Shown here one piece after another: positions 25,821 to 42,673 of a DNA stretch of 64,000 nucleotides. Made by a program: the position numbers and the translations under genes. Location: contig NZ_VIWO01000004.1 in the NCBI RefSeq assembly GCF_007829335.1, positions 372,001 to 436,000 on the forward strand, written 5' to 3'. The stretch's first letter is position 1, and each line of letters opens with the position of its first letter. The DNA comes from Chitinophaga polysaccharea (GTDB taxonomy: Bacteria; Bacteroidota; Bacteroidia; Chitinophagales; Chitinophagaceae). A model generated the notes under the pieces. That model worked only from the letters and a program-made list of their open reading frames with translations. It did no database searches and had not been told where the DNA came from.

Positions 25821-25899
25821 TGAAAATATTCATGTGCTATATATATTATATATTTTTTAATTTATATTATATGCGTTTTCGGCAATTTGATTCTGGTCA
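25821..25899. promoter_or_regulatory. Two Crp/Fnr-like sites upstream of the universal stress gene
   Basis: TGA-AAATAT-TCA (25821-25832, within ATGAAAATATTCAT) and TGA-TTCTGG-TCA (25888-25899) both have the FNR half-site spacing. They lie in the divergent spacer between the 104-residue gene and the universal stress gene. No strong TAnnTTTG box was found at the expected distance here. Confidence 0.45.
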
Positions 25900-25990
25900 T
25901 GTGACCTTCGATGACGAAAATCAGGGTATATGCTAACGCGTATCATATATTGCTTTTCGTTCTGTTGGTAATTTCGGGAAAAATGTTGCC

Positions 25991-26839
25991 ATGCAAAAGA
26001 TAGCAGCGATATTTGATGGTTTCAGATTTTCAGAAAGTACGCTTCACTATGCCATCTGGATAGCGGCGCATCAAGGGGCGCATTTGACCGGTGTTTTTCC
26101 GGATGATCTGACTTACAATAGTTTTAATTTATACCAGTTGTTGAAAGAGGGTACAGACCAGGCTATTATCGGGCAGCTGGAAGAGGAAGACGAAGAAAGA
26201 CGTAAGGCTGCAGCAGGAAAATTTGAAGCCGCCTGTCAAAAGGCCGGGATCCCTTATAGTGTTCACAGGAACAAAAATATTTCCCTGTTAAGCGCATTGG
26301 AGGAAAGCATTTATGCGGATTTATTGGTTATAGATGTTCGGGAGACATTTATGCACGATGTTAGTAAACCGCCCACTCGCTTTATCCGTGATTTGCTGAC
26401 CGATGTGCAATGCCCTGTACTTATCGTGCCTGCACAGATTTCGACGCCCCCGGTTTTTAGCAATGTAACGAATATGGTGCTTTTATATGATGGGGAACCA
26501 TCTTCTGTATATGCCATAAAAATGTACAGTTATCTTTTCTCTTCCTGGCAATCATTACCCACAACTGTTTTGTCGGTCAACCCGGAAGGAACCCACTTTG
26601 AGAACAAGCATTTAATAAAGGATTTTATCAGGAAACATTTCCCGGACGCAGTATATAAAATAATGGAAGGGGAACCGGAGGAGGAGATTGTAACCTATTT
26701 ACTGGGCCAACAGGAGGGAACCGCAATTGTGCTGGGTGCTTACAGGCGAAGCAGTGTGTCAAGGTGGTTCAGGCGGAGTATGGCGGATCTATTGATGCAG
26801 GCATTGTCATTTCCGTTGTTTATAGCGCATAACAAATAA
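25991..26839 (+). CDS. Universal stress protein, tandem UspA domains
   Basis: The protein has 282 residues made of two UspA-like halves. The first starts KIAAIFDGFRFSESTLHYAI and runs to about residue 150 (CPVLIVPAQ). The second starts NMVLLYDGEPSSVYAIKMYS and contains EGTAIVLGAYRRSSVSRWFR and the end SFPLFIAHNK. Tandem USPs of this size are common in Bacteroidota and often rise under oxygen or energy limitation. It precedes a zinc-ribbon gene and a second USP gene on the same strand (spacings 23 and 17 bp), so the three are likely an operon. Confidence 0.88.
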   Translation: MQKIAAIFDGFRFSESTLHYAIWIAAHQGAHLTGVFPDDLTYNSFNLYQLLKEGTDQAIIGQLEEEDEERRKAAAGKFEAACQKAGIPYSVHRNKNISLLSALEESIYADLLVIDVRETFMHDVSKPPTRFIRDLLTDVQCPVLIVPAQISTPPVFSNVTNMVLLYDGEPSSVYAIKMYSYLFSSWQSLPTTVLSVNPEGTHFENKHLIKDFIRKHFPDAVYKIMEGEPEEEIVTYLLGQQEGTAIVLGAYRRSSVSRWFRRSMADLLMQALSFPLFIAHNK

Positions 26840-26862
26840 TATTCGCACAAAAATAAATCATT

Positions 26863-27159
26863 ATGGAAAATAATATAATCTGCCAGAGTTGCAGCATGCC
26901 ATTGGATACAGCAGCGATTCGCGGTACAGAGAAGGATGGGGCTCCCAGCCGTGACTATTGTAAATATTGCTATCAACATGGCGAGTTTATACATCCGGAC
27001 TGGACGCTTAATGATATGAAAAAACACCTGACAGGGATAATGGAAAAAGAGGAAATGCCTGAAGATATATTGGAGACGGCGATTGGCCGTTTGTTGCATT
27101 TAAAAAGATGGACCAATAACAATGTAAACGTCGATCTGCATAAACAGGACGGGTTTTAA
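26863..27159 (+). CDS. Putative zinc-ribbon protein
   Basis: This 98-residue protein has the pattern CQSCSMPL followed by YCKYCYQHGEF, two CxxC pairs spaced like the PF12674-type putative zinc ribbon. The helical remainder (MKKHLTGIMEKEEMPEDILE) is conserved in that family. The role is unknown. It lies between two USP genes in a presumed operon. Confidence 0.82.
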   Translation: MENNIICQSCSMPLDTAAIRGTEKDGAPSRDYCKYCYQHGEFIHPDWTLNDMKKHLTGIMEKEEMPEDILETAIGRLLHLKRWTNNNVNVDLHKQDGF

Positions 27160-27176
27160 TAACAAAATATATAGCT

Positions 27177-27998
27177 ATGAAAAAAGTATTATTAGCCATG
27201 GATGGTGCGCATTTTTCTGCAGGCGCATTTGAATTTGCATCTCAATTAAATGAAATCGCGCCTTTACTCCTGATTGGTACTTTTTTGCCAAAGATGGATT
27301 TTTCGCCTTCCTGGAATGAAGCACTTCTTTCCGGTTCTGTTTTTGAGCCTACATTAGAAGGATATAGCGATGAGCTGGTAAATGAGAACATCGCTTTTTT
27401 CGAGAAGGAGTGCGTTCGGAAGCATATCGAATACCGGGTACATAAAGTCGCATATTACTCTTCTATACAGGATTTACGAAAGGAAACACGTTTTGCTGAC
27501 CTGCTGATACTGGGGAGTGAAAAATTTTATGAGAACCGGGGCACTGAAACTCCCAACGAATATCTGAAAATGGCACTACATAGTGCTGAGTGCCCGGTGC
27601 TATTGATTCCTGAGCATTCATATTTTCCTGAAAATATCGTGCTGGCCTATGACGGCAGTGAGCAGGCTACCTTTGCTATTAAATCTTTCTGTAACCTGAT
27701 GCCGGAACTTTCCCGGAAGAATGCTATTCTTGTGTATGCTGCAAATAAGGAGAATACTGAAATACCCGATATGCAACTGGTAGAAGAGCTGGTGGCAAGA
27801 CACTTTGCTAATTTCACTATTCACACGTTGAAAGGTACGTCTCCCAAGCACTTCGATACCTGGATGGCAGGAATTGAAAAACCTATGTTGGTATGCGGAT
27901 CTTATTCCCGTACAACGCTTTCAGAATTATTTAAGAAAAGCTTTGCTACAGAAGTAATAACCGGCCATGGGATGCCAGTTTTTGTTGCGCATGAATAG
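27177..27998 (+). CDS. Universal stress protein, tandem UspA domains
   Basis: The protein has 273 residues with two UspA-like halves: KKVLLAMDGAHFSAGAFEFA to CPVLLIPEHSYF, then NIVLAYDGSEQATFAIKSFC to GMPVFVAHE. It is a distant paralogue of the USP at 25991 with the same layout. It is the last gene of the plus-strand group and is convergent with the P-type ATPase gene; a weak AT-rich hairpin AATTTCAA/TTGAAATT (28038-28058) lies between them. Confidence 0.88.
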   Translation: MKKVLLAMDGAHFSAGAFEFASQLNEIAPLLLIGTFLPKMDFSPSWNEALLSGSVFEPTLEGYSDELVNENIAFFEKECVRKHIEYRVHKVAYYSSIQDLRKETRFADLLILGSEKFYENRGTETPNEYLKMALHSAECPVLLIPEHSYFPENIVLAYDGSEQATFAIKSFCNLMPELSRKNAILVYAANKENTEIPDMQLVEELVARHFANFTIHTLKGTSPKHFDTWMAGIEKPMLVCGSYSRTTLSELFKKSFATEVITGHGMPVFVAHE

Positions 27999-28060
27999 CA
28001 TAAAATCTCTTCCCCCTGTTATTGATTTTTATAGGCTAATTTCAATGTACTTGAAATTTA

Positions 28061-30763
28061 TCAGATAGTCCATTTCCACTTTTTTAAACACCTTATTATC
28101 ACTACAGGTAATATCGAGTACAATAATATAATACTCCAGTTTTGCCAGCTAATAGAGGTGATTTCAAGCGCTAATCGTACCGGCGTTGTCCAATAGGCCA
28201 CGAACGACAGGATAACGCAGCCCGCTATGGAATACCAGATGGCTTGATTGCGAAATACATCTGTCTTATGGAATGCTATTTTCCGGTTAAAAGTCATATT
28301 GAATACCTGCAATAGCTGTGAAAAAATTAAAGTATAGAAGAGAATATTATTATAAACTGCATATTTCTGTTCCTTGTCACGAAGAATTAAATAGCTGGTG
28401 GCCACAGCAGCGAGGGTCGTAACAGTGATTATAAGGGAATAAACAAGTATAGCCATCCATCTTTTTTTATCTATTATTGGCGTTCCTGGTGGATATGGCT
28501 TCCGTTGCATAATTTGATCACCGCTGTAGCTCACCCCCAGTGCCAATGCAGGCATGACATCTGTCACAAAATTAATAAATAGGATCTGTAACGGGAGAAG
28601 CTGGAAAGGAAGGTTAAATAACGCGCATACTGTAAATGTCAGCAACTCGCTTAAGTTGCAGGATAATAGGAAGATCACATATTTCCGGATATTTTCGAGA
28701 ATGATCCTTCCTTGCCTGACAGCGGAGACGATAGTTGTGAAGGCGTCATCTTTCAGGATCATGTCTGCTGCTTCCCGTGCTACCTGGGTGCCTCTTTGTC
28801 CCATAGCAACGCCAATATCAGCTTTTTTTAACGCCGGGGCGTCATTTACGCCGTCGCCCGTCATGGCTACTATCATTCTTTCATCCTGCAAAACGGCAAT
28901 CAGTTGCTGTTTTTGTTCAGGACTCACCCTGGCAAATACGGTACTGTTCAACCACTTTTCCCGATCAGAGACTGTCAGCTGGTCATAAGGTTTCATCGCG
29001 CTGCCAGGCATCACTTCTTCCGTGGGAGTGGAAATGCCCAATTGTAATGCAATATTCTTTGCAGTTTCAGGATGGTCGCCTGTTATCATTACGATCCTGA
29101 TGCCTGCTTTTTTGCATTCTTTGATTGCTTCCTTTACGCCCTCTCTCAGAGGGTCACTAAATCCAATAATTCCTGCCAGCGTTAAGTCATGCATGAAGTA
29201 CTGTTCGTAGGCTGATGTTTCCCGGTAGGCAAACGCCAACATTCGGAAACCGGATTGTGCATGTTTTGTGGCAATGGTTTTCCATTGTTCTCTTTCTTCT
29301 TCTCCCATTTGACTTTTCCCGTTTTCAGCTTCTACGGAAGTACAGTATTTCAATATTTCTTCCGCTGCGCCCTTGGCAGATACATAATACTGCCGGCGAT
29401 CTTTTTCCTTGTGACGTGTAAACATGACTCTCGTTTCTGAAGAGAAAGGCAATTCGTCAATTTTGCTGAATGCCTGCTGGTATTGTGTCAATTTTGCACC
29501 TGACGCATGCACCATTTTAAGCAAAGCGATCTCCAGTGGGGATCCGGAAGTAGTTGAAACATCCCCGCCCGGTTGATAAACCGCCGTATTGCATAATGCA
29601 GAAATTTTGCATAAATGGTCATAAGCAATTGCCCTGGAAATACAGTTGTTTTCCATCCAATGTATAGAAGTACCTGTAGCATCAATCTGGACATGCGCTG
29701 AAAGATCTGGAATATGAATAAGAGATACTTCAATATTATTTTTAGTAAGCGTACCTGTCTTATCTGTGCAAATAACATTTATTTCGCCGAGTGTTTCAAC
29801 GGCAGATAGCTTTTTAATGATGGCTTTATGTTTGGCCATTCGCAATACTCCAAAAGACAACACCAGGGTAGTTACAACGGGTAGTCCTTCTGGAATAGCC
29901 GCAACTGACAATGCTATTGCTATCTTTATTACTTTCGTGACAGGCGTTCCGTAAAAGAAGCTGCCGGTAAGGATTACAATAATTAGCGCCAACGTTATCC
30001 AAATCAGTTTTGTACTTAATTGGCGAACTTTTATCTCCAATGGCGTCGCTGTTTGTTCTGATTGCTGAACAATATCAGCCAGCTTTCCAACCTCAGTTTT
30101 TATTCCTGTATTTACAATGATGGCTAACCCATTTCCTTTTGTAACCAAAGTCCCTTTGTATAACATATTATGTCTTTCAACTAATGCTGTATTTGCAGGC
30201 AACGGGTAACATATTTTATCTGCTGGAAATGATTCACCCGACAGCATTGATTCATCGACCTGAAGCTGCTTGGAGTTAATGATTCTGGCATCGGCAGTTA
30301 CCATTCCACCTGTTTCAACGAAGAGCAAATCTCCTGGCACTAATAAGTCAGATTTTATTTCTACCATCTGTCCATCCCGGATTATCCTCGCATGGACAAT
30401 ATTTAATTTTTCCAGTGCTTTGATGGAGCGGTGCGCCTGGTATTCCATCAGGAATCCGACAATAATATTCAATATAATTACTATCAGTATCGCAAATCCG
30501 TCCAGCCATTCTCTGAAGAAAAATGAGAGAATCGTGGAGATGCCCAGTAATAGCGTGAATGGACTGGTAAACTGCCGCAGTAATATTAATAGCGCCTTGT
30601 TTTTTCTAGCGGTGATGACATTGTTGTAGCCATATCTGATCAACCTTTTTGCGGCTTCTTCCCTTGTTAACCCCGATGTACTATCTGTTGCACAAACTTT
30701 TGCAATAGTATCGGCATCCAACGCCCAATATTTGTTGTTTTCTTCATTTTGAGATGACAGCAT
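28061..30763 (-). CDS. P2A-type cation-transporting ATPase, Ca2+-like
   Basis: The protein has 900 residues. It has an N-terminal cation-ATPase domain (STSGLTREEAAKRLIRYGYN), the actuator motif LSGESFPADK, M4 with AAIPEGLPVV, the phosphorylation motif CTDKTGTLTKN, the P-domain MTGDGVNDAPALKKADIGVA, and M5/M6 with NLSELL and NFVTDVMPALALG. The PEGLP of M4 and the N-x-x-T-D of M6 match Ca2+/Mn2+ P2A pumps. Roughly ten membrane segments are present. Metal specificity is inferred from motifs. The gene follows the DUF302 gene by 26 bp on the same strand. Confidence 0.92.
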   Translation of the reverse strand: MLSSQNEENNKYWALDADTIAKVCATDSTSGLTREEAAKRLIRYGYNNVITARKNKALLILLRQFTSPFTLLLGISTILSFFFREWLDGFAILIVIILNIIVGFLMEYQAHRSIKALEKLNIVHARIIRDGQMVEIKSDLLVPGDLLFVETGGMVTADARIINSKQLQVDESMLSGESFPADKICYPLPANTALVERHNMLYKGTLVTKGNGLAIIVNTGIKTEVGKLADIVQQSEQTATPLEIKVRQLSTKLIWITLALIIVILTGSFFYGTPVTKVIKIAIALSVAAIPEGLPVVTTLVLSFGVLRMAKHKAIIKKLSAVETLGEINVICTDKTGTLTKNNIEVSLIHIPDLSAHVQIDATGTSIHWMENNCISRAIAYDHLCKISALCNTAVYQPGGDVSTTSGSPLEIALLKMVHASGAKLTQYQQAFSKIDELPFSSETRVMFTRHKEKDRRQYYVSAKGAAEEILKYCTSVEAENGKSQMGEEEREQWKTIATKHAQSGFRMLAFAYRETSAYEQYFMHDLTLAGIIGFSDPLREGVKEAIKECKKAGIRIVMITGDHPETAKNIALQLGISTPTEEVMPGSAMKPYDQLTVSDREKWLNSTVFARVSPEQKQQLIAVLQDERMIVAMTGDGVNDAPALKKADIGVAMGQRGTQVAREAADMILKDDAFTTIVSAVRQGRIILENIRKYVIFLLSCNLSELLTFTVCALFNLPFQLLPLQILFINFVTDVMPALALGVSYSGDQIMQRKPYPPGTPIIDKKRWMAILVYSLIITVTTLAAVATSYLILRDKEQKYAVYNNILFYTLIFSQLLQVFNMTFNRKIAFHKTDVFRNQAIWYSIAGCVILSFVAYWTTPVRLALEITSISWQNWSIILLYSILPVVIIRCLKKWKWTI

Positions 30764-30789
30764 TTTTCCTGTTTATCATTTTTATGACA

Positions 30790-31176
30790 TTATACCTTCT
30801 GTAGCACCCTGCTTAGTGATATACTGGCTGTTGCTGCAATTGTTTTTAGGCTGTCGTTATTACTTTGCCGGGCCATTTCTTCCGGATCTGCAATGCATAT
30901 CTCCACCTTCCCATCGTCATGTTGCTGTATTACCACATTGCAGGGAAGCAACAGGCCTATTTTTTCATCGGCACATAGCGCTTGGTATGCCAGCTGCGGA
31001 TTGCAGGCGCCCAGGATAGTATAATCTCTGAAATTAACGTCAATTTTCTTTTTTAAGGTGTCTTTTACATCTATGGTAGTGAGAACGCCAAAGCCTTCAC
31101 TTTTTAATGCTGCTGTTATTTTTTCAATAGCCTCGGTAAAAGATAAGGCAACCATTTTACATAGTTGTACATTCAT
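30790..31176 (-). CDS. DUF302 domain protein
   Basis: The protein has 128 residues. The DUF302 core reads ALKSEGFGVLTTIDVKDTLK, then YTILGACNPQLAYQAL, then GLLLPCNVVIQQHDDGKVEI and the ending helix. DUF302 proteins are small, widespread and functionally unassigned; many lie in redox or low-oxygen clusters. It is the first gene of a two-gene transcript with the P-type ATPase. A TGA-N6-TCA site lies 52-63 bp upstream of the start codon, and an AATATTTG box (31204-31197) is a weak -7 candidate about 37 bp from its centre. Confidence 0.88.
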   Translation of the reverse strand: MNVQLCKMVALSFTEAIEKITAALKSEGFGVLTTIDVKDTLKKKIDVNFRDYTILGACNPQLAYQALCADEKIGLLLPCNVVIQQHDDGKVEICIADPEEMARQSNNDSLKTIAATASISLSRVLQKV

Positions 31177-31227
31177 AAAATAACTTTTTTATTAGCCAAA
31201 TATTCAATAAACACGCCAGCTGCCCAA

Positions 31228-31261
31228 TGATTCCAATCAGCGTATCGGGTGATATCTGTCA
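31228..31261 (-). promoter_or_regulatory. Tandem Crp/Fnr-like sites upstream of DUF302
   Basis: TGA-TTCCAA-TCA (31228-31239) and TGA-TATCTG-TCA (31250-31261) have centres exactly 22 bp apart, two helical turns. The nearer one is centred about 36.5 bp from the 3' end of a weak -7 box, almost the distance seen at the nos promoter (37.5 bp). Confidence 0.5.
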
Positions 31262-31295
31262 GGAAAAAAAAGGGTATGTCTATTGTTATTTTTGA

Positions 31296-31318
31296 GGGCT
31301 ATTGTACGCCAATAGCCC
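31296..31318 (-). terminator. Hairpin after the lipoprotein gene
   Basis: GGGCTATTG (31296-31304) and CAATAGCCC (31310-31318) form a perfect 9-bp stem with a 5-base loop, 13 bp past the stop codon of the gene at 31332. It has no clear T-run on the minus strand. Confidence 0.5.
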
Positions 31319-31331
31319 CGTTGTCTTTATG

Positions 31332-32165: not shown

Positions 32166-32538
32166 AAAATGAAGTTTAATTGGGGTGTTAAATAACTGAA
32201 CCTGGCGAATAGCTGATTTCTCAATGGGCTGGCGTTGCTTTTCCGTGCGTTTGCAAAATTATAGTAGTATTAATAGGAGATAAATGATCCTGATCATGTT
32301 TGTGGTCAAATTTGGCCGTGGGAAGAAAAAAATATTACTTAATAAAGGATAAATTTGTCTTTTATTTTATTCCTTATTAACTTTGTATCATCCAAAGCAG
32401 GGAAACTGTTCTCAAAAGCATATGAATTAGCTTTTTTATTGTGACGAAGTGATGCCAAAAGAATAAAGGAGAGGAGGACAGTTGATATTCCGGTTGGAGA
32501 GAATTTTTGGTAATGATCAGGGAAAGTGCTACTTTATT
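32166..32538 (+). promoter_or_regulatory. Promoter and Fnr-like site for the haemoglobin operon
   Basis: This 373-bp spacer has no gene. TTTG (32354-32357), 20 bp, then TAACTTTG (32378-32385) is a near-ideal Bacteroidota -33/-7 promoter, placing the likely transcript start near 32391. A second -7-like TAAATTTG (32350-32357) overlaps its -33 box. ATGA-TCCTGA-TCAT (32284-32297) is a Crp/Fnr-type palindrome about 100 bp upstream of that start. Confidence 0.6.
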
Positions 32539-32934: not shown

Positions 32935-32977
32935 TATATACAACGCTCATAGTTTACATCAACTAAATAGAAGCATT

Positions 32978-33694: not shown

Positions 33695-33744
33695 TAGATA
33701 ACTGTTGCTTCAAAAAAAGTATTCTTTCGTATATCCCCAACTAT

Positions 33745-34338
33745 ATGCAGATAGACTACAATATACTGATTACGTATGGTGGCGTTGCCCGGAAGCTCCC
33801 CAAAGGCGCTATCATTTTTCATGAGGGGGGAACACCTCTTTTTTATTACCAGGTAGTGGAAGGGTCTGTAAAGATATTTACCAGCAACGCCGACGGCAAA
33901 GAATTAATACAGGGCATGTTTTCGGCTGGACAAAGCTTCGGCGAACCGCCCCTGATGGTGGGTAAATGTTACCCGACTACCGCACAAACCCTCACCTCAT
34001 GCGTGGTCATAAGAATTGCCAGGGAGAACCTGTTGGAGATTTTGAAAAACTATCCTGAGATTACTGAAAAGCTGCTCTTTACCTTCGCAGAACGTATTTA
34101 CAATAAAACAACAGCGGCCCAGGTATGGGTGAGCCCTACACCCGAAGAAAAGATCATGCTGTTTCTGAAACATTTGAATGTTCATCTTACCTCCGCTACC
34201 ACAGACCTGGTACCTTACACACGGCAGCAAATTGCGGACTTTACCGGGCTTAGGGTAGAGACCGTTATCCGAACGCTCGTCCGCATGAGCAAGAAAGGAA
34301 TGGTGAAAATCATCGATCACAAATTATATTACCAGTAA
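33745..34338 (+). CDS. Crp/Fnr family regulator without Fe-S cysteines
   Basis: The protein has 197 residues. The cyclic-nucleotide-binding fold runs LPKGAIIFHEGGTPLFYYQV to AGQSFGEPPLMVG, and the C-terminal winged HTH is PYTRQQIADFTGLRVETVIR with a recognition helix carrying the FNR-like Glu and Arg. Only two cysteines are present, in the sensor part, and none clusters at the N-terminus, so an FNR-type [4Fe-4S] oxygen sensor is absent. That resembles haem- or NO-responsive DNR/NNR regulators. Its position among haemoglobin, RIC and nos genes supports NO sensing. The TGA-N6-TCA sites in this region are its likely targets. Confidence 0.88.
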   Translation: MQIDYNILITYGGVARKLPKGAIIFHEGGTPLFYYQVVEGSVKIFTSNADGKELIQGMFSAGQSFGEPPLMVGKCYPTTAQTLTSCVVIRIARENLLEILKNYPEITEKLLFTFAERIYNKTTAAQVWVSPTPEEKIMLFLKHLNVHLTSATTDLVPYTRQQIADFTGLRVETVIRTLVRMSKKGMVKIIDHKLYYQ

Positions 34339-34339
34339 T

Positions 34340-35551
34340 ATGGACAGGCCGTTTGCCGGAAAATGGTTTCGATGGGGATTATTAAATTTGGCGATTGTAG
34401 CCCTGTACGGTACTCTAATGCGTTATAAAATTGCTTTTTCCCTTCCGTTCCTGGAGCAAAATAACTTGTTGCATGCCCATTCTCATTTTGCTTTCAGCGC
34501 GTGGATAGGCCATGTATTATACAGCGGGCTTGCGCTGGTGATCGCTCCCTTTGTTACCTCATCGCAGCAGAAAAGATACAGGCAATTGATTATGCTGAAC
34601 CTGGTATGCTCATTCGGTATGCTGATAGCATTTTCCGTGCAGGGGTATAAGACGGTATCTATTTCCTTCTCCACGTTGACTATTGTTATTGGGATGGCAT
34701 TTGCCGGTATCTTTCTCCGTGATGCAAAATATCTTCCTCTTAGACATCCTGCCAAACCCTGGGCAATAGCCGGCCTGTTACTGAACGTATTATCTTCCGC
34801 CGGACCGTTTTTCCTGGCCTATATGATGGCTACAAAAAATATTGACCATCGGTTTTATCTGGGTTCGGTGTATTATTACCTGCATTTTCAATACAACGGC
34901 TGGTTTTTCTTTGGAAGTATGGCGCTTGCGGCAGACCAGTTTCCTGCTGTTTTTGAGGGAGCTAAAAAGTATTTCCTGGTGTTTGTGATCGCTGTTATTC
35001 CTACTTTTTTTTTATCGATGCTATGGGCTAACTTGCCGGTCTGGCTATATGCCGTTACCGTTGCAGCTACTGTACTGCAGTTGTTAGCATGGATTATTTT
35101 TCTCAGGAAATCCTGGTTAATCTTCCGGCAGCAGCCATCAAGCTACCCCGGATGGATCAATTTCTTCTTCTGCGCGGCTACATGGGCGCTGACGATTAAA
35201 TTTCTATTGCAAACCGTTTCTGTCATACCATCCCTCAGCCAACTGGTGTTCGGATTCCGCCCGGTTGTCATCGCTTATTTGCACCTGGTTTTACTGGGCG
35301 TATACAGTCTTTTCCTCATTGGCTATATGCTCGCCCATGGCCTTATAAAAACGGGTAAACGCACAAAAACCTTTTCTTTTCTATTTTTTTCAGGGGTACT
35401 CTTCAACGAATTGTTCTTAGCAATACAGGGATTCGCAGCTTTTTTTTATATGCCGGTTCCATATATCCGTGAGATGTTATTTGTTGCTGCATTGATACTG
35501 TTGGGCAGTGCCACAGTGTTATTTGTTTCGCAAGCTGGCAACCGGCAGTAG
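34340..35551 (+). CDS. Polytopic membrane protein resembling haem-copper oxidase subunit I
   Basis: The protein has 403 residues and about ten to twelve membrane segments. Conserved-looking histidines occur in NLLHAHSHFAFSAWIGH (second segment), YYYLHFQYNGWFFFGSMAL and IAYLHLVLLGVYSLFL, patterns reminiscent of haem-copper oxidase/NO-reductase subunit I or NnrS-like haem proteins. It is too short for a full catalytic NorB or CcoN, so I do not assign an activity. It begins one base after the Crp/Fnr stop codon, so the two are translationally linked, and it may be a NO- or haem-related partner of that regulator. It converges with the second haemoglobin gene. Confidence 0.7.
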   Translation: MDRPFAGKWFRWGLLNLAIVALYGTLMRYKIAFSLPFLEQNNLLHAHSHFAFSAWIGHVLYSGLALVIAPFVTSSQQKRYRQLIMLNLVCSFGMLIAFSVQGYKTVSISFSTLTIVIGMAFAGIFLRDAKYLPLRHPAKPWAIAGLLLNVLSSAGPFFLAYMMATKNIDHRFYLGSVYYYLHFQYNGWFFFGSMALAADQFPAVFEGAKKYFLVFVIAVIPTFFLSMLWANLPVWLYAVTVAATVLQLLAWIIFLRKSWLIFRQQPSSYPGWINFFFCAATWALTIKFLLQTVSVIPSLSQLVFGFRPVVIAYLHLVLLGVYSLFLIGYMLAHGLIKTGKRTKTFSFLFFSGVLFNELFLAIQGFAAFFYMPVPYIREMLFVAALILLGSATVLFVSQAGNRQ

Positions 35552-35557
35552 CCGTGG

Positions 35558-35923
35558 CTATATCTTTTGTTGCATTACCGCCGCGATAGCTTTTGCACGA
35601 TATTTCATCTTGTCCGCATTAGGACCGGAGAAATGAGCATCAATGGTTTGGTCAAACAGCTCCAGCCACCGGCTAAAGTGTTCCGGTTTGGTTCGATGTT
35701 GCAAATGGATTTTACGATGTGTTTCCAGCGGATTCCCTTCATAATCGCCGGTGTAGAATAGTACATTTTCCCAGAAAGCACACATGGCAGGAAGATGCGC
35801 TTCCCAGTTAAAGGCCACCACTTTAGTAAAGAAAATACCCACTACAGGATCTGACTTTATCTTCCTATAAAATTCATCAACAACGACCCGGATGTCTGCT
35901 TTACTGGTGAGATCAGGTTTCAT
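35558..35923 (-). CDS. Group III truncated haemoglobin
   Basis: The protein has 121 residues with the group III globin pattern: VVDEFYRKIKSDPVVGIFF, WEAHLPAMCAFWENVLFY, then TKPEHFSRWLELFDQTIDAHF carrying the proximal His. It is a paralogue of the haemoglobin at 32539. It lies 30 bp past nosY on the same strand, which makes it the last gene of the nos transcript. A role in NO or O2 handling during N2O respiration is inferred. Confidence 0.9.
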   Translation of the reverse strand: MKPDLTSKADIRVVVDEFYRKIKSDPVVGIFFTKVVAFNWEAHLPAMCAFWENVLFYTGDYEGNPLETHRKIHLQHRTKPEHFSRWLELFDQTIDAHFSGPNADKMKYRAKAIAAVMQQKI

Positions 35924-35953
35924 TTTGGTTTGACATTTAGTTGTTAGGCAGCA

Positions 35954-36721
35954 TTATAAATCTCTTTTGTTGAATTTTCGCAGGGAAAAATAAAACGGTA
36001 CCACCACCCACAAAGCAAGCAGGGAAAAAGAGAGTAATAACCCCCAGCTGTTTCCGAAGAAATGCTGGAAAATAGCCCCGGTATAGCCCATCATGGCCGA
36101 TACATCCAGCCTTAGTAACATTAGTATGCGGCATAGGTCAACGGGACTTAATGCACTCAATATCACGATGGGCTTTTCGATCGGGTAATCTGAAAACTGG
36201 AAAAACAGGAATAATACTAATCCATCGAATAGCAACGCAAAGTATAGCCACAGCATAATGGAAATACCGATACCTTTTGCTTTATCTCTTGTAAGAATGC
36301 TGGCCAGGAATGCAATGGCCACAAAAATCACCGAGAGCAATGAACCCGATATGATCATGATCAGCGCCGTGCCCAGGTCCGTAAAGATGAGCAAGGGGAT
36401 GCCGATTCCTACGATGTAGGCCACTGTCATGCTTAGGGACAAGCCGGTGAACAGGGCTTTCCATATCATGCTTCGCTTTACAGGATGACTCAATAGCAGC
36501 TCAATGAATTCTGCGCTATTGTACACGTAAATGGTTGCAAATAGTACAGACACGAGGGGTACAGTCAGTAACACAATATTAAGCATCGTGACCAGCCCTT
36601 TGGCGGTATTGTCTTCCAGGCTAAAAGCGCTCCAGGAGAATAATGCCAGCATAATGGTGTAGGCGATCACAATTTTCGTTTTTAGAATATCCAGCGCCAC
36701 ATATTTTAATATACGCATCAT
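35954..36721 (-). CDS. nosY: NosY, ABC-type permease of the nos cluster
   Basis: This 255-residue protein has six membrane segments (IAYTIMLALFSWSAF, VLLTVPLVSVLFATIYVYNS, AFLASILTRDKAKGIGI and others). It is the ABC-2 type permease of the NosFY maturation transporter, which works with NosD to supply sulfur for the CuZ centre of NosZ. Its start overlaps the nosF stop by 4 bp. The motif around AEFIELLLSHPVKR matches the NosY family's cytoplasmic coupling helix region. Confidence 0.93.
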   Translation of the reverse strand: MMRILKYVALDILKTKIVIAYTIMLALFSWSAFSLEDNTAKGLVTMLNIVLLTVPLVSVLFATIYVYNSAEFIELLLSHPVKRSMIWKALFTGLSLSMTVAYIVGIGIPLLIFTDLGTALIMIISGSLLSVIFVAIAFLASILTRDKAKGIGISIMLWLYFALLFDGLVLFLFFQFSDYPIEKPIVILSALSPVDLCRILMLLRLDVSAMMGYTGAIFQHFFGNSWGLLLSFSLLALWVVVPFYFSLRKFNKRDL

Positions 36722-37428
36722 ACAGTCTGTGTTTTTAGCAGGTGAACAATGGACTGGGCGATCGTATCCTTGCCGGTGTCTCTTTTTAGCTCCATTGTAT
36801 TTTTATGTAACATCAGTTTGCCATCCTGGATGAAAATGACCTGGCTCACAATACCTTCCAGTTCGCTTAAAAAGTGTGAGGTAATGAGAAGAAGGCTGCC
36901 GGCTTTTTTGGCGGCAATGATCTTTGTTTTCAGGATTTCAGCCGCCACAGGATCCAGGCCGGCGGTGGGCTCATCCAGTATGAGTACCTCTGGCCGGAAC
37001 ATAAAGGTGAGGGTAGCGCTTACTTTTTGTGTGGTACCGCCGCTGAGTGTGCGCATTTTTTTATGGAGCATCTTGCCGATCTCAAATTGCTCGTACAGGT
37101 CGTTATCCAGTACTTCATTGCTGTTGCGGATGCCTTTTATCATATCAATTACCTGGCCGATGGTCATGTTTTCCGGGTAGCGGCCAATCTGTGGCATATA
37201 ACCTATATGCTTCCTGTATTCGTTATTATGCTTTATATTTTGACCGTTGAAGATAATGTCTCCTTTTTCGGGTAGCACCATGCCCAGGATGGATTTGATA
37301 AGTGTAGTTTTGCCGCAGCCATTGGGGCCGATAAGGGCAATACACTGTCCTTTTTCGAGCTTCAGATCCAGGTTGTCTAAAGCCTTTAGCTTGCCAAAAT
37401 GTTTGGTGATATGTTTTATTTCAATCAT
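36718..37428 (-). CDS. nosF: NosF, ABC ATPase of the nos cluster
   Basis: The protein has 236 residues. Walker A is GPNGCGKTTL, the signature is LSGGTTQKVSATL, Walker B is VLILDEPTAGLDP, and the switch His lies in LLITSHFLSELE. It is the ATPase partner of NosY in the NosDFY transporter. It overlaps nosD by 4 bp at its start and nosY by 4 bp at its end, so all three are translationally coupled. Confidence 0.95.
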   Translation of the reverse strand: MIEIKHITKHFGKLKALDNLDLKLEKGQCIALIGPNGCGKTTLIKSILGMVLPEKGDIIFNGQNIKHNNEYRKHIGYMPQIGRYPENMTIGQVIDMIKGIRNSNEVLDNDLYEQFEIGKMLHKKMRTLSGGTTQKVSATLTFMFRPEVLILDEPTAGLDPVAAEILKTKIIAAKKAGSLLLITSHFLSELEGIVSQVIFIQDGKLMLHKNTMELKRDTGKDTIAQSIVHLLKTQTV

Positions 37429-38681
37429 AATTTGTAAGGAATCATGCGTGGTGTATTATCCACGAAGTTTTCGGGGGTAAGGCTCGGCATTATTTTTTCT
37501 GATTTATCCAACAGGTTTACCATGAAGCTCTGATAGAGCAGCATGGCGGGCGGGTTCTTTTCTACAATCACTGCGTATAAACTGAGCGGATGAAAAGGAA
37601 CATCCCCGATTTTATCTTTATCCAGGTCATAGCCCTGGTATTTATCCCAGTAGTTTTCGCTGAAGTGATTGAGGGTCAATGAACCATTGGTAGTGACATC
37701 GAAAGTATTGCCGATGAAATTATTTTCCCTGATGATATTATCCATACAATTGGCTTGCATCCGCATTCCCCAGCCATTTGCACGGAAGATATTGTGTTCA
37801 ATGGTAATGCGGTTGGAGCCATCGAAGAAAATACCGGTAGTATTGCGTAGGAATTTATTGCCGGAGAGATAGCAATCTGTTAACTCCTTGAATAATACGC
37901 CATAGGCCGCATCTCCCCAATTTTCTTCAAATGTGTTGTTTATCATGGTCACTCTTTTGGTAAACATGACTGCTACACCGGCGCCGTTGTTTTTAAAATA
38001 ATTGGTGATATAGGCGTCGTCGTTGGAGAACATAAAATGCAGCCCATAGCGGAGGTTATGGTGAGAAATATTCCGCCAGATGACGGAGTGTGTCACAAAC
38101 TCAAAGTAAATACCATCTCTATGGCCGGCAATGCGATTGCCAATTATTTGCAGGCTGTCGCCCTTCCAGCAGTGGATGCCATTACCCGATTCATGTTCTT
38201 CTTTTTGAGAAGCCGTTATAACATTGTTTTTGATGGTACAGTGGGTGGCATATTGCAGGTATACGCCAAAGTAGTTATCAATTAAAACGTTATCTTCTAT
38301 CTGCACATTTTTTGCGTCGTACACTTTTATAGCACCGGGATCGCTCATAACGGCGCGTCCTGAGTGCTGGAGCTGGAACCCTGTAATCGTTACATCATTG
38401 CTTTTTACTGAGATAATTTCGTATTTCAATTCACCATCCAGCACGGGCATACCGGTGCCTGTAAAACAAATGGGTTTATCTATGATCAGATTGCCTTCCC
38501 GATAGATGCCTTTTGTAACGATAACGGTATCGCCATTTCGACAGGCAGCCAGCGCGGCTTTGATAGTGGGATAGTGCTGCCCTTTCCCCGCGTAGCGTGT
38601 AGCTGCCCATAAGCGTGAGGTGCCTGCATATAGCAGCATTATCAAAGCAAAGGAGCGATATAATTTACTGTTCATGACCAT
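37425..38681 (-). CDS. nosD: NosD, periplasmic copper/sulfur maturation protein
   Basis: This 418-residue protein has a signal peptide (LYRSFALIMLLYAGTSRLWA) and then a right-handed parallel beta-helix of PbH1/CASH repeats (VTITGFQLQHSGRAV, NVQIEDNVLIDNYFGVYLQY, CTIKNNVITASQKEE, ITIEHNIFRANGWGM). NosD receives a sulfur species from NosFY and helps build the CuZ site of N2O reductase. It overlaps nosF by 4 bp and the NosL gene by 17 bp. The frame starts MVMNSK; the ATG at 38675 is also plausible. Confidence 0.94.
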   Translation of the reverse strand: MVMNSKLYRSFALIMLLYAGTSRLWAATRYAGKGQHYPTIKAALAACRNGDTVIVTKGIYREGNLIIDKPICFTGTGMPVLDGELKYEIISVKSNDVTITGFQLQHSGRAVMSDPGAIKVYDAKNVQIEDNVLIDNYFGVYLQYATHCTIKNNVITASQKEEHESGNGIHCWKGDSLQIIGNRIAGHRDGIYFEFVTHSVIWRNISHHNLRYGLHFMFSNDDAYITNYFKNNGAGVAVMFTKRVTMINNTFEENWGDAAYGVLFKELTDCYLSGNKFLRNTTGIFFDGSNRITIEHNIFRANGWGMRMQANCMDNIIRENNFIGNTFDVTTNGSLTLNHFSENYWDKYQGYDLDKDKIGDVPFHPLSLYAVIVEKNPPAMLLYQSFMVNLLDKSEKIMPSLTPENFVDNTPRMIPYKL

Positions 38682-39714
38682 GATGAAGACTGCCTGAAGA
38701 AACAGCGGTACTTAATGTTTTCCAATCCACGGCGCTGGTCCCATACCTGGCGGCCTGTGCGTCGGCAGCAGATTTTGTGGCGAATGCGGCGATATTTCCT
38801 CCCATCGGGCTTCTCAGCGATTCATGTACTACATACCATGCAGTGGTGGCATCTATCAATTCATGCTCCTTTTCAAAGTTTCCGGTATAGTAGTTCCCGA
38901 TATACTCCTTTCCCAGCCCGGAGATGTAGCTTAGCAGGCAATGCATGTCGTCAAATTTATATACCCTGCCTTTCCGGGTAGTTACTTCTCCCATGAAGCG
39001 GCCGTCGGAGATAGACATTTTGCAGAAGTCGCAGGCATCTTTGTGAAGATTAATGGGGTCAGGGCCGTTATTGCTGCAGGAGGTCAGTATAAACAGGATA
39101 CTTACTGCGGCGGCTGCACTTTTGGGATTCCTGCGCAATTGTCCTAACACGCTGGCTTCCTTCAGAACCGCTATGAGCAGTAGCAGGCCTGCGCCAACAA
39201 ACAGCCATCCACCGATGTAAGGGACCGAGTAGGCGCCGAAGTTGAGTAATTGTTTAAAGCCGATCAGCGGTGGTTGATAAGCCATGCCCGGTACTTTGAT
39301 GGCAGCATTGGGATCGAGGTGGTGGCCGTAGTCATATTCCCATTTCCAGAAGTCAGCCATGGCAACAATGCCGAATAACACAAATGCAGCAAAAACGATA
39401 TATAATCTTCTTTTTCTGAAAAAGACAGCGGTGGTGGCAAACAGCAGTGCAAAAAACACAATGATGTATGGTAAAACGGTGAATTCGATGAAGTCGGCTG
39501 TATGCAATCTTTTCATCCCTATATAGTGGTTCAGACCATTAATAATATCTATATCCCCGGCTATTTTATTTGCCCATATCCGCAAACATAGCCCTTCCGG
39601 GTATTGGGGAGCATCCAGGTAAATACTCCAGATTGGCACAAACAGGGAAGCGGCCAGCGATAACGCTGCTGCAAAAAGCAGCATCCTGGATATGATTGAA
39701 GGTTTATTTTCCAT
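38665..39714 (-). CDS. nosL: NosL copper chaperone fused to an N-terminal membrane domain
   Basis: The protein has 349 residues from the ATG at 39714 (MENKPSIISRMLLF); a start at 39732 adds six residues. Residues 1 to about 195 hold about four membrane segments (LLFAAALSLAASLFVPIWSI, LPYIIVFFALLFATTAVFF, LYIVFAAFVLFGIVAMADFW, GWLFVGAGLLLLIAVLKE). A second hydrophobic stretch with a lipobox-like LFILTSC follows, then the NosL domain with DACDFCKMSISDGRFMGEV and YKFDDMHCLLSYISG; the Cu(I)-binding CxxCxM motif is clear. NosL delivers copper to NosZ. The first half looks like the separate membrane protein found in nos clusters of other Bacteroidota; the fusion is discussed in the findings. Confidence 0.9.
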   Translation of the reverse strand: MENKPSIISRMLLFAAALSLAASLFVPIWSIYLDAPQYPEGLCLRIWANKIAGDIDIINGLNHYIGMKRLHTADFIEFTVLPYIIVFFALLFATTAVFFRKRRLYIVFAAFVLFGIVAMADFWKWEYDYGHHLDPNAAIKVPGMAYQPPLIGFKQLLNFGAYSVPYIGGWLFVGAGLLLLIAVLKEASVLGQLRRNPKSAAAAVSILFILTSCSNNGPDPINLHKDACDFCKMSISDGRFMGEVTTRKGRVYKFDDMHCLLSYISGLGKEYIGNYYTGNFEKEHELIDATTAWYVVHESLRSPMGGNIAAFATKSAADAQAARYGTSAVDWKTLSTAVSSGSLHHGHEQ

Positions 39715-39774
39715 AAGTCTTTTTTTTTGCACTCTGTTGAGGCTCGATAGTCGTTACCGGAATAAAATCCGTTT

Positions 39775-39813
39775 AAAAAGGGCAACAGGTTAGTAATTCT
39801 TGTTGCCCTTTTT
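39775..39813 (-). terminator. Terminator or attenuator between nosZ and nosL
   Basis: AAAAAGGGCAACA (39775-39787) and TGTTGCCCTTTTT (39801-39813) form a perfect 13-bp stem ending in a T-run on the minus strand, 34 bp past the nosZ stop. It should lower expression of the nosLDFY genes relative to nosZ. Confidence 0.8.
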
Positions 39814-39846
39814 GTGGGGTAGGCCAGGATAGTAGATCTTACGTCA

Positions 39847-41835
39847 TTATTTGGTAGCCGTAAGGTTGTTTTTAAGTTTATCTCCGAGGCTATAAGTTAA
39901 CGGCACGCTGCTTCCTTTAGGTGAAACCCGTACGTATCCTTGCATTTCCTGGTGGAGGGCAGAGCAGAAATCGGTACAATAGATAGGGAATATGCCTGTT
40001 CTGTCGGGCGTCCACTTTAAAGTAGTGGTTTCACCTGGCATAACGAGTAATTCCCCATTGGCGGCGCCTTTAACGCCAAATCCGTGCGGCACGTCCCAAT
40101 CCTGTTCCAGGTTGGTGACATGGAAGTATACTTCGTCGCCCATTTGTATGCCTTCGATATTATCCGGGGCAAAGTGGGAACGTATAGCGGTGATATATAC
40201 GTGTACCTGGTTGCCCTGACGCACCACTTTGGCTTCCCCTTCTCCCTTGGTGGCATAAGGGTGTTTATTGCTGTTGATATCGAAAATCTTGAGCTGTTTA
40301 TCTTTTATCAGGGATGCGGGTACCGCCTGCGCATAGTGGGGTTCGCCGATAGTAGGAAAGTCGAGAATGAGCTGCATTTTGTCGCCGCTGATATCGAACA
40401 ATTGTGCGCTTTGCGATAACTCGGGCCCTGTGGGCAAGTAGCGGTCTTTGGTAATTTTGTTGTAAGCCACGAGGTATTTGCCAAACGGTTTTTTGGTATT
40501 ACCGCCCGGAATCATCAGGTGACCCACAGAATAGTAGGTAGGTTGCCTGTCTAATACTTTTAAATCTTTAATGTTCCATTTTACTACTTCTGACGAAACG
40601 AAGAAGGAAGTATAGGCGTTGCCGTTTCCGTCAAACTCCGTATGCAAAGGGCCTAACCCTGGTTTTTTCACTTCGCCGTACAGGGCAGCTTCATACTTTA
40701 TCACGGGTAAGCCGGCATATTTTTCAGGCTCAAATGCTTTGTCGGCAATGGCTTTCTGTATTTTATCGTAGCTGAAAACCGGTAGTAGGGCTGCCAGCTT
40801 ACCGCTGCCTACAATATATTCCCCGGTTGGGTCTACGTCGCAGCCGTGAGGGGATTTAGGGCAGGGGATGAAGTAAACAATATCGGGAAATTCGGATACA
40901 TCCAATACGGTTACTTCATTTTCCATTTCAGAAGTAGCTGTATGTGTTTCTTCATTGTATTTGTTGTGGGCGTATTTTATGGACTGTTTTTTACCTTTAC
41001 CCGCTTTTACATATTCTTCGGCCTTTTTCCAGTTAACGGCCATGATAAAGTCTTTATCCCGCTGGGAGGCATTTACTTCCAGCAGGGTATTAGCTTGCTC
41101 GGAGTTATAACAGCTAAAGAAAAACCAGCCATTTGATTTTCCTTTGCCGGCCCGGGCCAGGTCGAAATCTACGCCGGGGGTCTTTAGCTGGAAGGCAATG
41201 GCCATATTGCCGGTATTTTTATCTACACTTACAAAGCTGATATGACCTTTGAAATTTTCTTTGTAAGAGCTGATGGGCACATCACCGGCCTCGCCATCTT
41301 CTGGCACGCTAAAGCGAGTGCCGGCCACAATGTATTCTGAGTTTTCTGTACCAAAGGGGGAGCTGTGGTTGCCGGCGCTGTTGGGTAGTTCAATAATTTC
41401 GGTAGTACGGAATGTCTTCAAATCTATCCGGGCCAGTCGAGGCGTATTGTTACCATTTACAAATACCCATTTGCCATCTGCTACGCCATCAGTCATCGAC
41501 ATTTCCACGTGGTGCAGGTCGTCCCAGGGAACAAAGCCATGAGAGGTATTCAGCATAGGTTTGGTTTCTTCGCTGTATCCCCATCCTTTTTCAGGATCTA
41601 CGGAAAATACGGGAATAACACGCAGCAAACGGCCGCTGGGTAAACCGTACACGGCCAGCTGCCCGCTGAAACCCCCAGATACGAAGTTGTAAAATTCGTC
41701 GTATTTGCCGGGAGCTACGTAGGTTTTGGAAGCCGCATCGCCGCTTACTGAATTGCTGGTTCCTTTAGGCTTACATGAGGTGATGTACAGTGCTGCAGCG
41801 GCAAGCATACAGATGGACAAGTTTCTGGTAGACAT
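39847..41835 (-). CDS. nosZ: NosZ, nitrous oxide reductase, clade II (Sec-type)
   Basis: The protein has 662 residues from the ATG at 41835 (MSTRNLSICMLAAAALYI). The N-terminus is a Sec lipoprotein-like signal ending ITSC, with no twin arginine, as in clade II (atypical) NosZ. CuZ histidines lie in DDLHHVEMSM, SPHGCDVDPTGEY, LGPLHTEFDGNGNAY and GEPHYAQAVPA. The C-terminal CuA domain has YCTDFCSALHQEMQGYV with the C-x3-C-x3-H-x2-M ligands. It reduces N2O to N2 in the periplasm. It is 49 bp after the cytochrome c gene and is followed by a strong hairpin. Confidence 0.96.
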   Translation of the reverse strand: MSTRNLSICMLAAAALYITSCKPKGTSNSVSGDAASKTYVAPGKYDEFYNFVSGGFSGQLAVYGLPSGRLLRVIPVFSVDPEKGWGYSEETKPMLNTSHGFVPWDDLHHVEMSMTDGVADGKWVFVNGNNTPRLARIDLKTFRTTEIIELPNSAGNHSSPFGTENSEYIVAGTRFSVPEDGEAGDVPISSYKENFKGHISFVSVDKNTGNMAIAFQLKTPGVDFDLARAGKGKSNGWFFFSCYNSEQANTLLEVNASQRDKDFIMAVNWKKAEEYVKAGKGKKQSIKYAHNKYNEETHTATSEMENEVTVLDVSEFPDIVYFIPCPKSPHGCDVDPTGEYIVGSGKLAALLPVFSYDKIQKAIADKAFEPEKYAGLPVIKYEAALYGEVKKPGLGPLHTEFDGNGNAYTSFFVSSEVVKWNIKDLKVLDRQPTYYSVGHLMIPGGNTKKPFGKYLVAYNKITKDRYLPTGPELSQSAQLFDISGDKMQLILDFPTIGEPHYAQAVPASLIKDKQLKIFDINSNKHPYATKGEGEAKVVRQGNQVHVYITAIRSHFAPDNIEGIQMGDEVYFHVTNLEQDWDVPHGFGVKGAANGELLVMPGETTTLKWTPDRTGIFPIYCTDFCSALHQEMQGYVRVSPKGSSVPLTYSLGDKLKNNLTATK

Positions 41836-41884
41836 TGGTATATAATTAAGTATGAAGATTGAAATAGAAGGGTTCACTTTCTAT

Positions 41885-42382
41885 TTATTTTGCGCCATCG
41901 TTCTGGCGCATAAACTCAACGATATCTCGTGCCTCCTGCTCCGCCAGGTTTTGATTTGGCATACGCACCAAACAGATCTCCAGTTGTGCCTGTACTTCAG
42001 GGTCTTTGTTGATCATCGGATCGGGATTGGTGATAAAGTTCATGATCCAGTAGGCGGGGTGCCTGCTGGTAACACCTTTCCAGCCTGGTCCTACCAGTTT
42101 CTCTTCGCTGGTTTTGTGACAGGAAAAACACTTTGTTTCGGCGATCGATTTGCCTTTGGCAGCCATTGACGCATCGAGTGTCCCCACTGTAACATTGCTG
42201 GCGTCGTATTTACCTTCACCACGTTTGGGATCATAGGAGCCAGGATCGGTTGCAGCACTTTTAGGCTGTTCAGATGATGCGGTAGTAGTGGTGGCGGATG
42301 CAGATTCATGGCTGCTGCCTCCGCATGCTGCTATCAACAGCGCGGCTGCAATGCTTAGGGTTGTGATGATTTGCTTGTTCAT
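41885..42382 (-). CDS. Monohaem cytochrome c lipoprotein of the nos operon
   Basis: The protein has 165 residues. A lipoprotein signal (LSIAAALLIAACGGSS) is followed by a low-complexity linker and one haem site, CFSCHKTSEEKLVGPGWKGV (CxxCH at about residues 96-100). The sixth ligand Met is probably in LVRMPNQNLAEQEARDIVEF. It is the first gene of the nos operon and the obvious electron donor to NosZ. Its promoter carries a Crp/Fnr-like site (42433-42446). Confidence 0.92.
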   Translation of the reverse strand: MNKQIITTLSIAAALLIAACGGSSHESASATTTTASSEQPKSAATDPGSYDPKRGEGKYDASNVTVGTLDASMAAKGKSIAETKCFSCHKTSEEKLVGPGWKGVTSRHPAYWIMNFITNPDPMINKDPEVQAQLEICLVRMPNQNLAEQEARDIVEFMRQNDGAK

Positions 42383-42673
42383 TTTAGGTGCTTATTTTAT
42401 CCAAAAGTAGCCTGCGCCTGGCAGGTGGCTTTATGACTGAGATCATAACACTTCGGATATTTTGGAGGTAACTTGCTGCATTTTAACAAGTTTATAAATG
42501 CACCTTTCTCTTGAGATGGGGAGCGTTTGCATGAACGCTTGCAAGCGGACAATTACTGTATCAAAAACGCACATTTATTATTTTTATATATTTGTATATT
42601 ATTGATTTTTAGTTTAATAAGTTAATGGCATTTTTCTTGGCGCCAGGCTACGTCATTCTTGTTCAACTTTAAT
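42383..42673. promoter_or_regulatory. nos operon promoter with class II Fnr site; divergent promoter for permease
   Basis: Minus strand: TACTTTTG (42409-42402) is a perfect -7 box and no -33 box is present. ATGA-CTGAGA-TCAT (42433-42446) is centred about 37.5 bp from the end of that box, roughly -42 to -43 from the expected start, the class II activator position. Plus strand: TATATTTG (42587-42594) is a -7 box for the FtsX-type permease gene. Confidence 0.65.

Follow-up and report, generated by a model that had tools for sequence, protein, structure and literature searches.

The locus and its sites

The window analysed here, a stretch of 64,000 bases from Chitinophaga polysaccharea (G000:C4:372001-436000, in a genome of 7.6 Mb in 21 contigs), carries a nos operon, a nearby gene for a Crp/Fnr-family regulator starting at 33745, and genes for Usp and related proteins, and our subject is the set of TGA-N6-TCA palindromes that lie in the spacers around them. 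Genes were identified with Pfam and NCBIfam profiles, and the annotated portion (25991-42382) reads as follows:

25991..27998, plus strand: Usp, zinc ribbon and Usp genes
28061..31176, minus strand: DUF302 gene and P-type cation ATPase gene
31332-32165, minus strand: RHS-repeat protein gene
32482-35551, plus strand: globin, RIC iron-sulphur repair protein, Crp/Fnr regulator and a membrane protein of no known family
33745..34338, plus strand: the Crp/Fnr regulator, with recognition helix VETVIR and without Fe-S cysteines
34340..35551, plus strand: the membrane protein, with a predicted haem-copper-oxidase fold
35558..42382, minus strand: cytochrome c, nosZ (Sec-dependent, clade II type), nosL, nosD, nosF, nosY and globin

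Gene order and strand suggest that the last seven genes form one operon. Its NosZ scores 927 bits against a TIGR04246 cut-off of 625, which places it in the Sec-dependent clade II, and the cluster matches NosL, NosD, ABC_tran and ABC2 membrane domains.

We judge it probable that the spacer sites are operators for Crp/Fnr-family activators, in two classes, at promoters with the Bacteroidota -7 box TAnnTTTG, with the 33745 product acting at nos (class A, single palindromes) and receiver-Crp and FNR-like proteins acting at tandem sites (class B). An earlier note on this DNA had placed six TGA-N6-TCA sites in spacers, at 25821, 25888, 31228, 31250, 32285 and 42434, and all six are there; a further site at 25912-25923 and a degenerate one (TAACGCGTATCA, 25934-25945) are additional to them. 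That note gave a chance expectation of 15-16 sites; 100 dinucleotide shuffles give a mean of 15.9 (standard deviation 3.9, largest 26), and the window has 27. Ten of these lie in spacers, which make up 7,473 of the 64,000 bases, and 17 inside genes, a split that depends on our own gene list. Equal density inside genes had been named as a ground for dropping the idea, and within the window the densities are unequal, with 1.34 sites per kb of spacer and 0.30 per kb of gene. The control motif ACT-N6-AGT occurs 10 times, twice in spacers. Eight of the spacer sites fall in 25.3-42.7 kb, one of which (28052) sits at the meeting point of two converging gene ends. The site at 25821..25832 (plus strand) has neither a -7 box nor a partner 22 bp away; it is probably not an operator and may be a chance match.

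The nos operator and its promoter

The nos promoter contains two elements:

42431..42448, minus strand: nos operator, 18-bp palindrome TTATGATCTCAGTCATAA, identical in the closest relative seen (G261)
42402..42409, minus strand: perfect -7 box TACTTTTG, 34 bp from the site centre

Conservation was followed in the 29 best NosZ matches outside the source genome (L002-L030), drawn from the 130 genomes with NosZ among 244 genomes of the family. Within 300 bp upstream of cytochrome c-nosZ the TGA-N6-TCA core is found in 28 of the 29 loci, ATGA..TCAT in 23 and TATGA..TCATA in 14, and the site is often lengthened to TTATGAYNNNNRTCATAA. Operators with a box give the consensus TTATGATTnnAATCATAA, and the TATGA..TCATA form is present in 22 of 24 of them, a set picked for having a box. 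Among 96 oriented cases of TATGA-N6-TCATA in nos and regulator loci, collected without regard to the box, a -7 box (5 or 6 of 6 bases matching) follows at a gap of 23 in 34 cases and of 24 in 7, while every other gap gives at most 5. In Flavobacterium psychrophilum TAnnTTTG has been placed at -12 to -5, according to the part of that study available to us (PMC9723704), and the gap of 23-24 therefore puts the nos operator centre at -41.5 or -42.5 relative to the predicted start sites, the position near -41.5 that marks class II activator-dependent promoters. The two spacings of 36.5 and 37.5 bp in the earlier note run to the last base of the box; measured between the centres of site and box they are 33 and 34 bp. 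They concern 42434 (box 42402-42409) and 32285 (box 32254-32261), both on the minus strand, and the sites behave as Crp/Fnr-type operators in the class II geometry proposed from them. The composite TGA-N6-TCA-N23/24-TAnnTTTG occurs 11 times in the source genome against 3 for its control, and a stricter TGAY composite of site and box 424 times against 30 in 59 genomes, the source genome included.

The product of 33745 matches PF00027, PF13545 and PF00325, giving a cyclic nucleotide-binding (cNMP) fold with a Crp-type helix-turn-helix (HTH), and belongs to the FNR/CRP DNA-binding superfamily. As had been proposed, it combines FNR-like recognition residues with a lack of Fe-S cysteines: all 19 aligned sequences, counting that of the window, keep ETVIR, and the only cysteines of the 33745 product (75 and 86) are not invariant in these sequences, so that the N-terminal cluster of the FNR [4Fe-4S] oxygen sensor is absent. 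A 33745-like gene is present in 82 of the 244 family genomes. Of the 29 nos loci, 16 have it no more than 1.5 kb from nosZ and six others (G119, G123, G108, G237, G146, G055) at up to about 11 kb, and linkage of regulator and nos genes, also part of the earlier proposal, thus extends to 22 of 29; two genomes (G110, G015) have it on a separate contig and five nos genomes lack one. The linkage to nos and nitric oxide (NO) genes known for DNR/NnrR is therefore shared, while the operator is not, the nos consensus being TTATGATTnnAATCATAA and not the FNR box TTGATnnnnATCAA. In several relatives the regulator is divergent from cytochrome c-nosZ with operators in between, with another operator between the regulator and the membrane-protein gene, and in two genomes with no NosZ match (G114, G185) an operator stands upstream of the regulator gene itself. 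Because of this linkage, and of operators at the regulator gene that point to autoregulation, we infer that proteins of the 33745 type bind class A sites.

Some side observations concern the same genes. NosZ (39847-41877) shares 98% identity with its G261 counterpart and 85-88% with those of six genomes of other genera, whereas for the genus-mates G006 and G229 the figure falls to 78% and 72%; that identities are higher in other genera than in genus-mates suggests horizontal exchange of the nos cluster. The membrane protein next to the regulator has 403 residues and no Pfam or NCBIfam match, and of 30 regulator loci 24 have a relative of it adjoining the regulator. The structure predicted for it (pLDDT 89) has the fold of haem-copper oxidase subunit I, with NorB and CcoN nearest (TM-score by query 0.69-0.79), and it has no match among PDB sequences at E<=1. 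H47, H49, H182 and H315, which we take to be ligands, are invariant; no conserved histidine occurs in the helix VII region, and in the model the catalytic site therefore looks lost.

Tandem operators 22 bp apart

Upstream of the Usp and DUF302-ATPase genes the sites are arranged in pairs:

25888..25899, plus strand: upper site in the Usp1 array, with the next one 24 bp below
25912..25923, plus strand: distal operator of the Usp1 tandem pair
25934..25945, plus strand: proximal degenerate operator TAACGCGTATCA, 22 bp below 25912
25969..25976, plus strand: -7-like box TAATTTCG (5 of 6), read from the sequence, 33 bp from the proximal operator centre, Usp1
31250..31261, minus strand: distal operator of the DUF302-ATPase promoter
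31228..31239, minus strand: proximal operator of the DUF302-ATPase promoter, in the 22-bp register
31197..31204, minus strand: -7-like box AATATTTG (5 of 6), 33 bp from the proximal operator centre, DUF302

Both promoters follow one plan, in which a second site (TAA or TGA-N6-TCA) lies 22 bp below the first and is followed by 23 bases and the -7 box, placing the operators at -41.5 and -63.5. The source genome has 21 copies of the exact pair TGA-N6-TCA-N10-TGA-N6-TCA and none of the reversed control. The copies form groups on contigs C1, C2, C10 and C16 and also lie at ccoI and in the ccoS-ccoN region, these genes being named from their translations, and Usp genes are found in both of the tandem-pair stretches fetched (L236, L238). 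In 167 loci of relatives (892 kb), chosen for their genes or for a single site-box composite, a spacing of 22 accounts for 20 pairs and every other spacing up to 60 for three at most, with one pair for the control motif. Pairs collected without regard to the box (77 oriented) have it at a gap of 23 in 24 cases and at any other gap in four at most. Usp1 orthologues have 23 TGA-N6-TCA sites upstream, where shuffles give 3.2, spread over 18 of 30 loci (counting that of the window); for DUF302 orthologues the figures are 14 sites, 3.5 in shuffles and 7 of 30 loci. A 22-bp pair, with TAA permitted in the second site, occurs somewhere in 3-4 kb in 18 of the 30 Usp1 loci. The TATGA..TCATA flanks are rare in tandem operators (2 of 129 distal, 3 of 129 proximal).

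The arrangement is found well beyond this genome. A tandem pair is present in 152 of 395 genomes of the phylum, with the highest counts in this family, this order and some families of the class; the control gives one or two matches in several genomes, and single matches therefore mean little. Pair and box together were found in at least 119 public stretches, where our own arithmetic expects about 7 at equal base use. By their titles, 115 of the 119 listed carry Bacteroidota names, and the others come from Legionella, Komeilibacteria, a Bifidobacterium metagenome-assembled genome (MAG) and one unnamed bacterium. In the first 80 of these stretches a downstream frame was found for 79 of 88 oriented matches, encoding Usp (9), D-2-hydroxyacid dehydrogenase (7), COX1 (4), FixS (4), FixO (3), a ccoI-type ATPase domain (3), cytochrome c (3), CBS (2), Hsp20 (2), ScdA_N (2), SprB (2), acetate kinase (1) and PPDK (1). 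RIC genes are also among the downstream genes. There are 72 families altogether, the counts above being drawn from 25 of them, and many of the genes are not of the expected kind.

Candidate regulators of the tandem promoters

The source genome encodes 34 PF00027 proteins; loci are available for 30, and the sequences of 28 besides 33745 were read. E--IR recognition residues are common to 33745 (VETVIR), an FNR-like protein (TESAIR) and two receiver-cNMP-HTH fusions (TESLIR, KESLIR). The FNR-like protein has an N-terminal cysteine cluster and its gene adjoins ccoI; the fusions, of 352 residues, unite receiver and Crp domains in one protein. Full-length receiver-Crp genes are present in 27 of the 119 listed tandem loci (880 kb; 17 of the first 80, 589 kb) and in 2 of 146 control loci (543 kb; sets of 1/29, 0/29, 1/29 and 0/59), the controls being shorter, so that bases are the fair measure. 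The FNR-like gene is present in 5 of the 119 and 2 of the 146. Both receiver-Crp genes of the source genome lie within about 1.3 kb of a tandem pair.

In both cases examined, the source genome and L285, the receiver-Crp gene overlaps a gene for a PAS histidine kinase. The FixL-like PAS kinase beside a response regulator is thus found in the source genome, where FixL is the best match to the kinase PAS domain among solved structures; in L285 the domains were assigned by Pfam only. A histidine is present at the position of the FixL haem ligand, but the arginine with which FixL senses oxygen is not kept. At L285 one tandem pair has a box on either side, one facing the kinase and receiver-Crp genes and the other a RIC-like gene.

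Two further clusters of the source genome were seen. One (L236, G000:C2:66001-86000) joins Usp, Hsp20, pyridoxamine-oxidase, kinase and receiver-Crp genes with four tandem pairs, a content that resembles the mycobacterial DosR dormancy regulon. The other (L237/L090, G000:C8:310852) has a TATGATCTAAATCATA site flanked on one side by a gene whose translation reads as a ClC-like channel and on the other by two Crp/Fnr paralogues that contain cysteines and have the helices YETIYR and YETTFR.

Site 32285 and the globin operon

32285..32296, minus strand: single site with a perfect -7 box, directed at the RHS-repeat gene (31332-32165)
32254..32261, minus strand: -7 box TAATTTTG for the 32285 site

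In G261 the proteins from nos to globin are 85-98% identical to those of the window, and 32285 is not common to the two, since homology upstream of the globin gene begins only below the site. With the box on the other strand as well, a conserved haemoglobin promoter at 32285 is ruled out. A scan of L061, L062, L064, L065 and L066 gave no site-box composite upstream of Glb1 or RIC, and a scan of the window gave no tandem-type promoter adjoining its globin operon.

The tandem promoter of G261 (L232 14600-14850) is like that at 25896-25995 in the window, the former serving a globin-RIC-Crp operon and the latter the Usp1 genes, which about 6.4 kb of other genes separate from the globin-RIC-Crp operon. 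Promoter and operon have been re-sorted, because the Usp1-type promoter precedes the globin operon in G261 instead, and the globin operon may belong to the regulon there. Above the globin gene, 32335-32385 holds a GGATAAATTT(G/A)TCTTTTAT stretch and a TAACTTTG box, almost identical in G261; this block could contain a repressor site, the Rrf2/NsrR type being a guess.

Weighing the explanations

In the reading we prefer, class A is a single palindrome, in its fullest form TTATGAYNNNNRTCATAA, centred at about -41.5 or -42.5 before cytochrome c-nosZ. The linked, cysteine-free 33745 product would most likely bind it and switch nos on, the signal probably being a nitrogen oxide. Class B consists of operators at -41.5 and -63.5, separated by 22 bp or two helical turns and in some cases joined by a third. 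Dimers bound at both would lie on the same DNA face and act as a class II and class I activator pair on Usp, DUF302-ATPase, cbb3 and other low-oxygen or dormancy genes. Its likely binders would be the PAS histidine kinase and receiver-Crp fusion pair and the cysteine-bearing FNR-like protein beside ccoI; all the proposed binders have E--IR recognition residues in common.

Several observations weigh against this. The reading is weakened because the nos flanks are not uniform, with full TATGA..TCATA in only 14 of 29 nos loci and the 22 of 24 drawn from the set preselected for a box. As a genome-wide marker TATGA-N6-TCATA shows no excess (11 against 11; 99 against 98 with one mismatch). The nos core is present in 22 of 23 genomes with a 33745-like match at E<=1e-25 and also upstream of nosZ in 6 of 6 without one, and a protein other than the 33745 type may thus bind it; the ATGA..TCAT flanks are found in 20 of 23 and 3 of 6, respectively, and one of the six genomes below the threshold (G137) has a weaker Crp adjoining nosZ. 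A perfect core occurs in only 18 of 30 Usp1 and 7 of 30 DUF302 upstream regions, the Usp1 pair of the window is degenerate and each of the window's two tandem boxes has one mismatch in six. At ccoI the tandem site adjoins the FNR-like gene, and receiver-Crp is therefore not the sole linked regulator.

In the strongest alternative, every tandem site would be bound by the FNR-like protein encoded next to ccoI, which has the cysteine cluster, and the receiver-Crp genes would only share the neighbourhood. This protein has the TESAIR helix, a tandem promoter lies between its gene and ccoI, and low-oxygen regulators typically have cbb3, 2-hydroxyacid dehydrogenase and acetate kinase among their targets; the excess of receiver-Crp genes at tandem loci (27/119, against 5/119 for FNR-like genes and 2/146 for controls) nevertheless makes it rather unlikely.

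The single regulon of the earlier note would have the 33745 product alone activate the Usp, DUF302-ATPase, globin and nos genes. It is favoured by the linkage of regulator and nos genes and by the fact that the nos, Usp1 and DUF302 promoters have one TGA-N6-TCA core and one class II spacing in common. However, the site classes are unlike in flanks and tandem layout, and Usp1 sites occur in genomes without a 33745-like match at E<=1e-25, among them one of the same genus (G106). A matrix built on the 24 box-bearing nos sites of relatives gives 26.5 for 42434, 13.2 for 32285 and 10.2 for 25888, and falls below zero for the DUF302 sites (31228, -1.1; 31250, -10.7) as well as for 25912 (-4.5), 25934 (-4.9) and 25821 (-8.1). 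G261 has nos and the regulator with no Usp-DUF302 block in the 36 kb fetched, and at least three other proteins of the source genome have the same E--IR residues. A single regulon under 33745 is thus unsupported, and we regard it as improbable.

Chance matches in AT-rich spacers are scarcely credible: TGA-N6-TCA is common, most of its 27 occurrences in the window lying inside genes, but the pair excess (21 against 0), the preference for spacing 22, the box gaps, the 424 composites against 30 and conservation over many genera reject a chance origin of the nos, Usp1 and DUF302 sites as a group.

Relation to known systems

According to the available part of one survey, nosZ without nir is found mainly in Bacteroidota and Firmicutes of nosZ clade II (PMC4250227), and Bacteroidota therefore matter as a sink for nitrous oxide. 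The operator consensus and the exact promoter geometry can serve regulon prediction in the phylum, and the receiver-Crp proteins form a candidate regulator class. Because at least four Crp/Fnr proteins of one genome have recognition residues in common, regulon calls made by core motif alone mislead. A literature search covering titles and the starts of abstracts, with most subscription journals outside it, found no operator or regulator reported for Bacteroidota nos genes, no tandem Crp/Fnr operators in Bacteroidota and no receiver-Crp control of Usp; nor did it bring up the exact tandem register, how widely this occurs in the phylum, or the receiver-Crp linkage. The parts of two papers at hand show that nos genes preceded by Crp/Fnr sites, and boxes shared by FNR and DNR, are already known (PMC1274295, PMC11539149).

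Crp/Fnr regulators have been described in other settings that bear on this one. HcpR and HcpR2 of Bacteroides are Crp/Fnr regulators of NO stress in the same phylum, and in the sections available the HcpR2 motif is GTAACnnnnGTTAC, which differs from the operators here, with hcp as the sole predicted target in most Bacteroides (PMC1274295). MalR-like Crp/Fnr homologues of related Bacteroidota (Flavobacteriales and Saprospiraceae MAGs) have been given a different reading, as that study, in its accessible portion, predicts that they sense carbon and describes no role for them in regulating denitrification (PMC8510549). In Nitrosophilus labii Crp/Fnr sites are also found upstream of clade II nosZ, but in another phylum, with the consensus TTGA-N6-TCAA (at most 2 mismatches) and with no tandem register in the parts of the paper seen (PMC11539149).

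The FNR/ANR and DNR system of Pseudomonas, with its shared box TTGATnnnnATCAA, is alike in having at least two Crp/Fnr proteins with near-identical recognition residues on related palindromes, one of them linked to nos and NO genes, and the targets in both cases include cbb3, fermentation, Usp and RIC genes. In the recognition residues E--SR the S is replaced here by I. It differs from the present case in the nos operator, which here is TTATGAYNNNNRTCATAA-like and not TTGATnnnnATCAA (given as the FNR/DNR consensus in the part of PMC1274295 available), in the -7 box TAnnTTTG and in the tandem 22-bp register.

The FixL-FixJ-FixK cascade is alike in joining a histidine kinase with a FixL-like PAS domain and a Crp/Fnr output to cbb3-type and low-oxygen promoters. 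There a separate FixJ activates fixK, whereas here the receiver is fused directly to Crp/Fnr; a separate FixJ was not searched for. Tentatively, and with a little less than even confidence, we suggest that many Bacteroidota control a programme for low oxygen and dormancy by a condensed form of this cascade, in which the PAS kinase would phosphorylate the receiver-Crp protein, dimers at -63.5 and -41.5 would drive Usp, cbb3, lactate dehydrogenase, Hsp20, RIC and ATPase genes, and a cysteine-free paralogue with a stretched operator would have split off to nos.

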